IMG/VR virus record: IMGVR_UViG_3300044691_000290
Coordinates: 1 to 58,888 of that record
Length of the DNA: 58,888 nucleotides
Origin: a virus
Direction: 5' to 3' (one strand)
Part shown: positions 25,551-58,888 of the stretch, in pieces
Position numbering within the stretch: the stretch's first letter is position 1
How the letters are laid out: the number at the start of each line of letters is the position of its first letter
The notes under the pieces: model-generated
Told to the model about the DNA's origin: nothing
What the model saw: the letters and a program-made list of their open reading frames with translations, nothing else
Databases searched by the model: none
Made by a program: the position numbers and the translations under genes

Positions 25551-26744
25551 TTAGATATCAATGTTTACGGGCGTTTCTGGTACTCTCTGATCGGTTGAAA
25601 TCGTCCTTTGTTCGCTCTTATCTTTGGCGGTTCGTTGGCGGTGCGCTCTAAACGCGCTGTGAACTTCCGCCGAATGGTCCGGGTGGTGATGTCCATAAGT
25701 CGAGATCAGCACCTTCACATCCATGGCCAAGTAGTCGGCCGCTTTCCATGGATCGGCGCCAGCCTGCATCATCCACGTGGCCAAGGAATGCCGCCACGTG
25801 TGCTGCGTTACACCGTCGAGCCCTGCGGCAAAGACGGCCTCCTGGTGCGCCCGCTTGACCTTGGCAACTGGCTTGCCTGCGCGCTCCACGACGAACCGCT
25901 GCCCGTTCGCTCGCCAGCGGCGAAGGTGCGCCAGCAACTCAGGTGGCACTCGCACCGTCTGCTTTCGTTTGGTAGTCTCGCGCTCGCCCGTGGGGCGTCC
26001 ATAGAAGACGCCGTTGGTCAAATCAATCCAAGCGCGGTCTTTTGGTCGCTTCGGTTCAATCGATGCCGATGCGATGACCGACGCGCGGGATCCCATATAG
26101 CGCGCCACCACCATGAATCGCGCCACGTGTCGCCGTGGCCGCTTATTGGTCACAACCCCGTCCCGCACTTCCCGGTCCCGCCAAGCTCCTAGAATGAGCC
26201 GCGCGGCCTCGCCCTTGGTCATCCAGCGTTCCCGCGGCAGCGACTTGTCAGGTAAGACTACGGACACGATTCGATCGTGCAACCCTTCCTTCCGATGGTG
26301 ATTGATGGCCGATCGTAAGTCCTCCAGCTCGCGGCGCGCGGCGGCATCGCTGCCCCGCTGGCGAGCATAGGCGCGGCATTCCGGACCCGTTACCTTGTCC
26401 AGGGTCTTGCCTGACCAGAATGCATCGAGGAACCCGATTCGGCTGTCGGTCTTTTTAGGGTCGGCGTGGTTCGGTGCGACATCACGCGCATAGAGTGCGA
26501 GCACGTCGTCGACCAGGATGGCGGCGGGGTCCCGCGTGGTGGCTGTGGCCGTCTTGGTATGCTTAGAACCTAAATGCTTGCCGAGGGCTTTTTCTGCGCC
26601 CGCAAGGTCGCTCGCGCTGCAGCCAGTTCCGATTTGGCGAGCGCCGTCGAGGACAAGCCAAGTTGATTCATGGGTGATTCGGCCGGCGCTATCCCGGCGC
26701 GTCGGTCGGAGCCACAGTCTCGGACCTTTGGAACGACGCGACAT
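25551..26744 (-). CDS. int: Tyrosine site-specific integrase
   Basis: 397 residues. The C-terminal catalytic domain shows the first Arg in YMGSRAS, a KRKQTVRVP beta-hairpin Lys, HTWRHSLATWM (HxxR), and the nucleophile Tyr in ISTYGHHHPDH. The usual LGH before the Tyr is replaced by YLAMD, as in many Hyphomicrobiales integrases. The N-terminus (MSRRSKGPRLWLRPTRRD) is an arm-binding type. The 5' end overlaps the excisionase-like gene by about 175 bases, and the stop abuts attP. Confidence 0.9.
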   Translation of the reverse strand: MSRRSKGPRLWLRPTRRDSAGRITHESTWLVLDGARQIGTGCSASDLAGAEKALGKHLGSKHTKTATATTRDPAAILVDDVLALYARDVAPNHADPKKTDSRIGFLDAFWSGKTLDKVTGPECRAYARQRGSDAAARRELEDLRSAINHHRKEGLHDRIVSVVLPDKSLPRERWMTKGEAARLILGAWRDREVRDGVVTNKRPRRHVARFMVVARYMGSRASVIASASIEPKRPKDRAWIDLTNGVFYGRPTGERETTKRKQTVRVPPELLAHLRRWRANGQRFVVERAGKPVAKVKRAHQEAVFAAGLDGVTQHTWRHSLATWMMQAGADPWKAADYLAMDVKVLISTYGHHHPDHSAEVHSAFRAHRQRTAKDKSEQRTISTDQRVPETPVNIDI

Positions 26745-55085: not shown

Positions 55086-55096
55086 AACGACGTGTT
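55069..55096 (+). promoter_or_regulatory. Copy 15 of promoter element, -10 lost
   Basis: TTGACTTTCCGCACTAAAA is intact but the -10 position reads CGTGTT. A consensus promoter starts one base earlier than its end, so the element may act as an upstream binding site. Confidence 0.6.
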
Positions 55097-55123
55097 GACA
55101 AACCCCGTCCCTCCTGCTAGAAT
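55095..55123 (+). promoter_or_regulatory. Near-consensus sigma70 promoter
   Basis: TTGACA, exactly 17 bases, TAGAAT. The best match to consensus in the window. It would start transcription near 55130, just before the 55133 gene and the structured region. Confidence 0.8.
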
Positions 55124-55132
55124 GGAACCACA

Positions 55133-55327
55133 ATGAAAGCTTTTCTGTTCGTCATGATTCTGATGACCCCTGACGGCAAGCTGCCTCCGCAACAGGAGCC
55201 GATGGACACCATGGAAGCCTGCGTGGCCCGCGTCGCGGAGATGCAGACCAAAATGGCTGCCGTGAATGAGAATTTCGGCTTTCAGACGACATGCGTCCAA
55301 ATGTCCAAGAAGGCCGATCCGGCTTAA
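55133..55327 (+). CDS. Small secreted or membrane protein
   Basis: 64 residues. MKAFLFVMILM start, then DGKLPPQQEPMDTMEACVARVAEMQTKMAAVNENFGFQTTCVQM. The pattern of a small exported phage protein with two Cys. Start lies about 3 bases after the predicted +1, so translation may be leaderless. Confidence 0.6.
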   Translation: MKAFLFVMILMTPDGKLPPQQEPMDTMEACVARVAEMQTKMAAVNENFGFQTTCVQMSKKADPA

Positions 55328-55870
55328 GCCTAAAGCGTTCCTGTGCGCCGCTCACCAAGTCAGTATAGTCCCCGTGGGGATAGAGCGGCGTTCAAGAGTG
55401 CTAACGTAATTCGGAGCGGGTACCGGCCGGTAAACCCACGCGCCGCCCTTCGCCACAGAGGGCGCTCCGGATACGCGGCGGCTATCCCTCTGCGGAGGCG
55501 AACCGTAACGTCGGGCATCCTGTGGTCCCGACCGCCGCGTTTTCAATCTAAACCCCCTCGGGGGTCACGCGGCGACCAGCGCGGAACGTAGAATGACGAT
55601 CACGCGAGGCGGGGCCTGACTACACGGGGATGTCCCGGTCACGGAATCACCGCACGATAACCAAAGGTCGCCGTGTGCGGCTCGCTGGCGCCGCGTTTTC
55701 AATCAGGTGGGGAAGTCGGAAGTAAGCGCAGGGGAATCCCCAACCCTGCTACGAAGGCGGATGGGTGCTCGAATTGACGAGACAGCACGGCTAAGGCGGT
55801 GACTGCTGCCAAGACGTAACCCACCTGATGCTCACTCTAGCTTCCGCGGAGGCGGCTAACAGCGCGCCCC
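55328..55870 (+). ncRNA. 543-base structured non-coding region, candidate large RNA
   Basis: No credible ORF. Many perfect stems: GGGTACCGGCCGGTAAACCC (55420-55439), GTCGGG/CCCGAC (around 55511-55530), ACCCCC-TC-GGGGGT (55552-55565), GCAGGG/CCCTGC, CTCG-AATTGA-CGAG, and a long-range TCAGGTGGG/CCCACCTGA enclosing about 110 bases. CGCCGCGTTTTCAATC occurs twice (55533-55548 and 55689-55704). Placed between a consensus promoter and the small terminase gene. The class is unknown; large ornate phage RNAs such as GOLLD, ROOL or skipping-rope are candidates. Confidence 0.6.
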
Positions 55871-56314
55871 ATGGCGACAACCCTAACAGACGAGCAGCGC
55901 GCCTTCATCATCTGGTCGATCGCGCACTGCAAAGAGCCTGAACATATCGTCTACAGTTTCAACGAGCGGTGGAAAGCGAAGCCACCTTGCACCATCGGCG
56001 ATGTCGGTGCTTGTGATCCCAAACGCTTGACCGGCGAGTGGCTGGCCTATTTCAACGAAGAGCGCGAGACGTTTCTAGCAGCGCCAACCACAGACAAGCG
56101 CATTCGTATGGCGCTGCTTAATCGCGTTATCATGGACCTGGAAAGCCGCGGCATGTACCGGACGGACCCGAAAGGGTTCCTTCAAGCCGTCGAGCTGATG
56201 GCCAAGGAGGATGCTGGGTTCTTTGCGCCCAAGGCTCTGCCGGGGGCGAAGGCGTCGGGCCGCATCGAGTTTAGCTTCGAGGCGGATCCGCTGCCGCCTG
56301 TGCCGCCTTACTGA
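55871..56314 (+). CDS. Small terminase subunit (DUF2280-like), -PPY end
   Basis: 147 residues. HTH-type N-terminus and a DUF2280-like line (EQRAFIIWSIAHCKEPEHIVYSFNERW, VGACDPKRLTGEWLAYFNEERETFLA, RIRMALLNRVIMDLESRGM, LLxxAAKE-type AVELMAKEDAG). Binds the packaging start site and regulates the large terminase. No good ribosome-binding site is within 20 bases of the ATG, so upstream RNA structure may control translation. Ends -PPVPPY. Confidence 0.7.
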   Translation: MATTLTDEQRAFIIWSIAHCKEPEHIVYSFNERWKAKPPCTIGDVGACDPKRLTGEWLAYFNEERETFLAAPTTDKRIRMALLNRVIMDLESRGMYRTDPKGFLQAVELMAKEDAGFFAPKALPGAKASGRIEFSFEADPLPPVPPY

Positions 56315-57689: not shown

Positions 57690-58888
57690 GTGACCTCTCT
57701 TGTAATCCCCTATTTGCCGCGCGAGCAGTTCAAGCCCTACCACGCGCGAAAAGAACGTTTTGCCAAGATCGTGGCGCATCGCCGGTTTGGTAAGGCACTG
57801 GACGTTGATACGCTAATTCCGATCTATTGCGGCGGCTTTAAGCGAATGGGCGATCTTGTGGTCGGAGATTGTATCTTCGATGAAACCGGCGCACCTACGA
57901 AAGTGCTTGAAGTGCACGAGGTTCAAATCGGACGCCCTTGCTACGCGGTAAGATTCGATGACGGATCGGAAGTTGTTTGTGACGAAGATCATCTTTGGGT
58001 CACACAGACGAAAGCGGATCGCACCCGTCGCCGTGGACGATACGTTTTAGGTGCGGGACGCGAAGGAACGCGGGTGGTAGGCGTTCAGCAGCGACGACAA
58101 GGCAAAATAAAGACCACGCTTGAAATCGCGCAGACACTCAAATCACGCGGAGAAAATAACCATTCGATCGGGTTTAGCGGCCCTCTTCAATACCCACCGC
58201 AGCGTCAGCCAATCGATCCTTATATTTTAGGACTTTGGTTAGGTGACGGTCATTCGAGAGTGCCGCATTTCACGACAATGGATGAAGAAATCGTTGTTGA
58301 GTTGAAGCGATACGCTGATGCAATTGGCTGTACGTTTCAGAAAATCGAAAGTTCAAACGCGGGCCGAGCGACGACATATTCGATAACCGCATCTAAAAAG
58401 GATGTGCCATTTTCGCGCACACTCAATCAGTGCGGTTTGATCAACAACAAGCACATTCCATCGTGCTATCTCTACGGCTCTAAAGAGCAGCGAATGGCGC
58501 TTCTTCAGGGGTTGATGGATACGGACGGGTCTATTACTCCGAAGGGACGTGCTTGTGAGATTACGCAGAAACGGCGCGGACTTGCCGAGCAGATAGTACA
58601 ACTTATCGTAAGTTTGGGCGAGAAAGCGAATCTAACAGAGAAGGTCATAAACGGACGCTCGTATTGGCGCATTACCTTTTGTCCAGCATTTAATCCATTC
58701 CGTCTGCAACGCAAAGCGGGTCTGTTTAAGGAACCAAAAGAAACGGCATTCGGTAGGGCGCGACGTATCGTTGCTGTTGATCCGGTAGAGACAAGGCCAG
58801 TTCGTTGCATCACGGTGGACAGTCCGAGTCGGCTTTATCTCGCGAGCGAACGATTAATTCCAACACACAATACGGTAGGTTGCATCAC
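57690..58888 (+). CDS. Large terminase, split by an intein; 3' end outside window
   Basis: GTG start one base after the previous stop. Extein residues 1-35 are the terminase N-terminus (LVIPYLPREQFKPYHARKERF then AHRRFGK). Walker A HRRFGK-T is interrupted between Lys35 and Thr395 by 359 intein residues, and TVGCI begins the second extein when the window ends. Without splicing the ATPase motif would be broken. The mature enzyme packages DNA into the procapsid. Confidence 0.85.
   Translation, partial: MTSLVIPYLPREQFKPYHARKERFAKIVAHRRFGKALDVDTLIPIYCGGFKRMGDLVVGDCIFDETGAPTKVLEVHEVQIGRPCYAVRFDDGSEVVCDEDHLWVTQTKADRTRRRGRYVLGAGREGTRVVGVQQRRQGKIKTTLEIAQTLKSRGENNHSIGFSGPLQYPPQRQPIDPYILGLWLGDGHSRVPHFTTMDEEIVVELKRYADAIGCTFQKIESSNAGRATTYSITASKKDVPFSRTLNQCGLINNKHIPSCYLYGSKEQRMALLQGLMDTDGSITPKGRACEITQKRRGLAEQIVQLIVSLGEKANLTEKVINGRSYWRITFCPAFNPFRLQRKAGLFKEPKETAFGRARRIVAVDPVETRPVRCITVDSPSRLYLASERLIPTHNTVGCI
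57795..58871 (+). other. Intein with LAGLIDADG endonuclease, class 3 type
   Basis: Residues 36-394. It begins with Ala (ALDVDTLIPI), so the usual Cys/Ser1 is absent. Block B is CDEDHLWVT (His101, Trp103), block F is VRCITVD (Cys373), block G is IPTHN (Thr392, His393, Asn394), then extein Thr395. Trp-Cys-Thr at these places is the hallmark of class 3 inteins. The endonuclease motifs LGLWLGDG (180-187) and LQGLMDTDG (272-280) are intact with their Asp residues. Confidence 0.85.

Follow-up and report, generated by a model that had tools for sequence, protein, structure and literature searches.

GOLLD and ROOL are large, non-coding and elaborately folded phage RNAs of unknown function (PMC12286853, PMC7567579), and the ICP1 RNA is an abundant phage RNA of ~800 nt (PMC7567579, PMC12286853). 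The putRNA of HK022 is an antitermination element in phage early transcripts (PMC9378689). Here we describe a conserved RNA core from the late genes of a phage. Like GOLLD and ROOL it is non-coding, folded and phage-encoded, but those RNAs are several times longer, have other sequences and often lie near tRNA islands; no tRNA is present in the window analysed. The core shares with the HK022 putRNA that it would be a structured RNA in a phage transcript which might influence RNA polymerase in cis, yet it is larger, contains a kink-turn, is closed by a 14-bp stem (P1) and belongs to late genes (a sequence link was examined via Rfam only). The SAM-I riboswitch is built as a four-helix junction with a kink-turn in its second arm, and so is the core. 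However, unlike SAM-I and other kink-turn riboswitches, the core has no Rfam riboswitch match to E = 10, no expression platform is evident by eye, and P1 seems too stable for an ordinary switch. The phi29 pRNA is also a phage RNA near packaging genes, but the phages carrying the core, in contrast to phi29, have terS and terL, the core has no Rfam match, and one copy (L255, see below) is not beside the terminase. Few structured phage RNAs have a proven fold and no assigned job; the core would add a compact one, common to phages that differ in terminase and coat protein and small enough to probe, crystallise or delete.

The window spans a full IMG/VR record (58,888 bases), which may be incomplete. 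Phage ppBeUSDA76-2 and Bradyrhizobium prophages carry relatives of its coat protein (61-85% identity), which makes Bradyrhizobium or kin the most likely host. On the + strand, the late genes follow the order 64-aa ORF, gap, terS-like gene, small ORFs, a gene with a RyR domain and TerL from 57690, while the opposite end carries an ORF of ~282 aa, taken for the scaffold, and then the coat gene (861-1820). The features around the gap are:

55095-55123, + strand: best sigma70-like promoter, TTGACA-17-TAGAAT, a consensus match only
55133-55327, + strand: 64-aa ORF between the promoter and the RNA, its ATG ~10 nt past the -10 box
55328-55870, + strand: non-coding gap between the 64-aa ORF and the terS-like gene, from codon scores and the lack of an Rfam match
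55871-56314, + strand: terS-like ORF of 147 aa (DUF2280 and phrog_546, both weak)
57690-58886, + strand: N-terminus of TerL, interrupted by an intein with a LAGLIDADG domain which splits Walker A (RRFGK^TVGCI), running off the contig

The initial annotation had read this 543-base gap as a candidate for a large, ornately folded non-coding RNA, preceded by the strongest sigma70 promoter and followed by the small terminase gene. The absence of a plausible gene was borne out, as all six frames had negative scores against the codon usage of the window phage itself (-0.15 to -0.21) and 5-8 stops each; both flanking ORFs scored +0.16 to +0.24 and two other nearby ORFs only 0.01 and 0.06. The promoter is indeed the best sigma70-type match in the whole window (11/12), although the small 64-aa ORF comes first and the RNA after it. 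A small terminase downstream is plausible, but its support is weak, with a DUF2280 match below the Pfam cut-off (E 0.0015) and a phrog_546 match at E 1.7e-4. A pattern search with this terS found no relatives among viral or genome contigs. The many perfect stems that had been noted proved modestly enriched as 8-mer inverted repeats (11 against 4.0 expected, a number reached in 20/1000 shuffles), while exact 9-bp ones were within chance (3 against 1.1, reached in 146/1000). Nor did ornate folding distinguish the gap: its whole-length folding z was -1.5 on the + strand and -2.3 on the - strand, and 120-nt windows averaged z +0.2 in the gap versus -0.1 in the remainder of the genome. As the folding energy of the gap is not special, counting perfect stems in GC-rich DNA is weak evidence for a structured RNA.

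The evidence for a structured RNA came instead from covariation across homologs. A DNA search of the gap against 266 Bradyrhizobium genomes returned one strong match (84% over 83 bp, E 5.8e-19), in a prophage locus (L193, the same as L198 and L205) also recorded as IMGVR_UViG_2561511129_000001. There the core lies inside a non-coding gap of ~510 nt immediately 5' of terS and then terL, and the terminases belong to other families than those of the window (TerL phrog_38, TerS phrog_15261). Two IMG/VR fragments, L255 and L256, were recovered with a pattern of the unpaired joiner (CACCGCACGATAA, gap, CAAAGG); a covariance model built from the window and L193 sequences alone scored them at 57.6 bits (E 4e-15) and 56.4 bits (E 9e-15). 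The L256 copy starts a few bases past a stop codon and ends 21 bases before a 33-aa ORF, beyond which come an 86-aa ORF, terS and a terL of PBSX-like type. It is three genes ahead of terL, and relatives of the 86-aa ORF and of TerL occur in phages of Bradyrhizobium type. The L255 copy comes after terL and portal, with a head scaffold gene on one side and a coat gene of P22 type on the other, and the position before terS described for the window, which L193 shares, is thus not general. All copies (4/4) are in sense orientation to head or packaging genes (terS or coat).

The four-row alignment (A4) of these members gives a fold with P1, the joiner CGGAAC, P2, a kink-turn, P3, P4, the joiner CACGATAA...CCAAA and P6; the unpaired conserved segments are CGGAAC and CACGAUAA...CCAAA. 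The core spans ~130 bases in the window and 114-147 nt among members, with the following parts:

55567-55696, + strand: conserved core RNA, a four-helix junction (P1, P2-kink-turn-P3, P4, P6) with homologs L193, L255 and L256 and models R1-R3
55567-55581, + strand: P1 5' strand ACGCGGCGACCAGCG, with a bulged A at 55575; 14 pairs kept in 4/4 members, 7 of them changed on both sides
55588-55598, + strand: bulged strand of the kink-turn, with C-stem GUAG, bulge AAU, GA (55595-55596), C and NC-stem G; the C-stem covaries (UA/CG, AU/GC) and UGACG is invariant
55615-55623, + strand: other strand of the kink-turn, with NC-stem CC, Y, GA (55618-55619) and C-stem CUAC, from the alignment
55625-55652, + strand: P4 hairpin CGG-G-GAU ... 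AUC-A-CCG, two pairs changed on both sides (AU/CG/UA; UA/GC/CG)
55653-55665, + strand: single-stranded joiner CACGATAA-CCAAA, invariant in 4/4 rows of A4, with a hairpin insert in L193
55666-55682, + strand: P6 hairpin GGUCGC...GCGGCU, from alignment and fold
55683-55696, + strand: P1 3' strand CGCTGGCGCCGCGT, from the four-row pair count

Pairing was kept in 98.3% of 120 cells counted as standard pairs (30 pairs in four rows), and 11 of the 30 pairs changed on both sides, numbers which lean toward the chosen structure since A4 served both to choose it and to count pairs. None of 500 shuffled alignments matched the real one in pair conservation and two-sided changes together, and slid controls kept 30-42% of pairs with at most 2 two-sided changes. 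The covariation of P1 was first seen with two members only, the window and L193, in which the closing stem differs in sequence with 14/14 pairs kept and five changed on both sides, and it then held in L255 and L256. P2 occurs as GUAG/CUAC, GCAG/CUGC or GCGG/CCGC, and the inner two pairs of P4 are A-U and U-A, C-G and G-C, or U-A and C-G, depending on the member; earlier models of P2 and P4 were dropped in favour of the four-member alignment. Next to P2 lies a bulge of three bases, the last of them U; beyond it GA faces GA, C faces Y, and a G-C pair comes after. The kink-turn consensus consists of a C-stem, a 3-nt bulge, tandem G.A/A.G pairs and an NC-stem, and at sequence level all four members conform to it, with an imperfect NC stem (A.C mismatch) in the window. 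L255 has the consensus fold as its minimum-energy fold, and for L256 it is within 1.1 kcal/mol of the minimum. Across the family (models R1-R3), P1, P2 and P4 covary and the joiner is invariant. Judged from this comparison, the core is almost certainly a real conserved RNA fold. P1 contains G.U pairs in L193 and L256, and one-sided changes pass via G.U, a pattern which fits an RNA better than a DNA cruciform.

Rfam 15 contains no match for any member (the window was searched at the gathering threshold and the region to E = 10 with cmscan), in line with the earlier statement that no known RNA class was evident, and blastn of the gap and of the homologs against named phages and plasmids gave nothing significant. 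No published description turned up in the literature searched. The core thus defines a previously uncatalogued family with four known distinct members. Its distribution is patchy: it is present in 1/266 Bradyrhizobium genomes, which places one member in a genome of that genus, it was not found in the scanned relatives of the coat gene (from 80 viral and 27 genome loci), and models R1 and R2 found no further member in Bradyrhizobium or in samples of the family, order, class and phylum of the lineage of G150, the Bradyrhizobium genome that carries L193. The family may be larger, since records close to that of the window may be absent from the collections searched.

In the window, other elements surround the core:

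55334-55404, + strand: Domain A hairpin, z -3.8, window only
55473-55541, + strand: Domain C hairpin, closed by ACGCGGCGG/CCGCCGCGT, its outer strands the same as those of core P1, from the fold, window only
55540-55548, + strand: inter-domain linker TTTTCAATC, copy 1, from the repeat search
55696-55704, + strand: inter-domain linker TTTTCAATC, copy 2; CAATC is also found 3' of P1 in L193 and is absent from L255 and L256
55703-55828, + strand: Domain E, closed by TCAGGTGGG/CCCACCTGA, z -3.1 (sub-domain 55703-55830); L193 has a different stem there

Domain A is the best-folding sub-domain of the gap, followed by Domain E. The long-range pairing reported for the gap was located as the 9-bp stem which closes Domain E (TCAGGTGGG at 55703-55711, CCCACCTGA at 55820-55828), and the two reported copies of CGCCGCGTTTTCAATC lie at 55533-55548 and 55689-55704, an exact 16-base repeat beyond chance (a 16-mer repeats in 0/1000 dinucleotide shuffles). 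The outer strands of P1 (ACGCGGCG and CGCCGCGT) are identical to those of the preceding hairpin at 55473-55541, and TTTTCAATC follows each 3' strand, so that the like stems, sharing 3' strand and linker, account for the two copies of CGCCGCGTTTTCAATC.

These surroundings could be taken for a 500+ nt RNA of the GOLLD/ROOL kind in which the core is one domain, a reading which we regard as improbable. The core is accompanied by closed flanking domains in the gaps of both the window (~545 nt) and L193 (~510 nt), CAATC linkers stand 3' of P1 in both, and the whole gap of L193 has a z of -3.3; against this, beyond the core the alignment of the window with its nearest homolog is poor and the flanking domains have no sequence homology, L255 and L256 consist of the core only, and folding across the window is not unusual. 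Compared directly with GOLLD and ROOL, the gap does not match their covariance models and its conserved unit is 114-147 nt and not several hundred, which leaves a giant RNA of that kind at the gap unsupported. The size originally proposed (543 nt) is consequently not supported either, the conserved unit being ~114-147 nt and two of four members being the core alone, near genes. L193 has linkers CACCAAAATC and CACCAATC and another stem directly after, like the AGGTGGG stem of the window, but this common layout is suggestive only and is absent from L255 and L256. We propose that the hairpins around the window core are additions of the window phage and not conserved parts.

For the window copy, energy models, which ignore the kink-turn, rank another fold best: in it the P1 5' strand forms 11 bp with GGUCGCCGUGU, and the consensus fold is less favourable by 12.8 kcal/mol; this copy may be decayed, decaying or bistable. 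The whole-gap minimum-energy fold swaps partners among the strands shared by P1 and Domain C. Strands ACGCGGCG/CGCCGCGT occur at 55473-55480, 55533-55541, 55567-55574 and 55689-55696 in the order a-b-a-b, which allows two exclusive pairings and makes a conformational switch possible, in the window copy only.

As to function, we consider it somewhat probable that the core represents an undescribed small family of structured RNAs and is a late-operon module which works either in cis or, once excised, as an RNP. The core would be transcribed within the late-operon message, P1 would insulate it so that it folds on its own, and the kink-turn and joiner may bind a protein or RNA polymerase; it could then act in cis on the late transcript, through antitermination or stability, or alternatively be cut out as a small RNP. 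A cis mechanism on the late message alone is quite possible, if short of an even chance, and the HK022 putRNA would be its nearest working analogue. An effect on late transcription would make the core a regulator of phage head genes that consists of RNA only, and formation of an RNP would point to a kink-turn-binding partner in alphaproteobacteria.

It is rather unlikely that the core is a trans-acting or structural small RNA, released from the late message by cleavage, for instance by RNase III within the long P1, and then acting, free or as an RNP, on targets in the host or the phage. Every member is closed by the 14-bp P1, genes border the core directly in the two compact ones, as if it were the whole unit, and the unlike phages, with no single gene family tied to the core, are as expected of self-contained cargo, but no promoter or terminator of its own is evident and 4/4 copies are sense-oriented inside operons. 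The ICP1 RNA of ~800 nt, together with GOLLD and ROOL, would be the nearest analogues of such a free phage RNA.

A small mobile, MITE-like element with inverted termini (TCTGACTG...CAGTCAGA), hopping between phages with the fold as a by-product of its terminal repeats, might explain why TCTGACTG termini are common to three members scattered in unlike phages. We find this highly improbable: the termini of the window differ yet stay complementary, no target-site duplication was seen at L193, L255 or L256, the internal P2, P4 and kink-turn are conserved, and only one core copy was found per record.

The position of the element also raises the possibility of a packaging role, either for an RNA resembling pRNA or for a cos/pac site in the DNA just upstream of terS, given that terS-proximal DNA often holds cos sites, that the window and L193 copies are directly before terS and that the L256 copy is three genes before terL. 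What makes such a role less likely is that the terminases of these phages differ and that L255, placed after terL and portal and flanked by the scaffold and coat genes, is away from the terminase; furthermore, most phages of the same coat family lack the core, and covariation that preserves G.U pairs speaks against a DNA-only site. We therefore give packaging very little weight and favour a late-operon module. We tentatively suggest a new class of kink-turn junction RNAs, an exchangeable module of unrelated phages of Bradyrhizobium and kin which would act on late-gene transcription or form a phage RNP, with a possible second fold in the window copy.

Several other candidates were rejected. R1 matches L201-L204 were about the chance number over 392 genomes, and L201 and L202 overlap ORFs; L199 is coding DNA, and L197 had an R1 score at chance. 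CGCCGCGTTTTCAATC alone gave 27 matches in IMG/VR, approximately chance by estimate, and the two-copy GTTTTCAATC pattern gave 13, among which L146, at first promising, lies in coding and antisense-coding DNA. L197 has at ~1000-1560 an apparently non-coding region with GGGGATGACCCGGTCACGG within a GCGTATCCAAGG/CCTTGGATACGC stem and no R1 or R2 match. Unannotated gaps also precede terS in Rhizobium phage RHph_I3_18 (MN988542.1; L254:2328-3070 and L253:1-197; ~940 nt), with a long domain closed by GTTGGGCGG/CGCCCAAC (z -2.4) that is not homologous per R1, and in Synechococcus phage Ssp-JY39 (PP438429.1; L252:1813-2742; ~930 nt), a phage with a terS related to the one in L193.

The RyR-domain protein (PF02026; 57344-57688, + strand) lies immediately 5' of TerL, where coat-family relatives have a terS of ~80 aa; its relatives are spread over many unlike phages, and the gene, being mobile, was useless as a synteny anchor. 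Relatives of TerL read RRFGKTVGC at the Walker A site where the LAGLIDADG intein of the window sits, and the splice residues form an unusual pair, with Ala as the first residue of this intein and Thr after its end. Elsewhere in the window, two neighbouring genes for N6/N4-type DNA methyltransferases (PF01555; 26895-29221, - strand) are adjoined by a tyrosine integrase-like gene (25551-26744).
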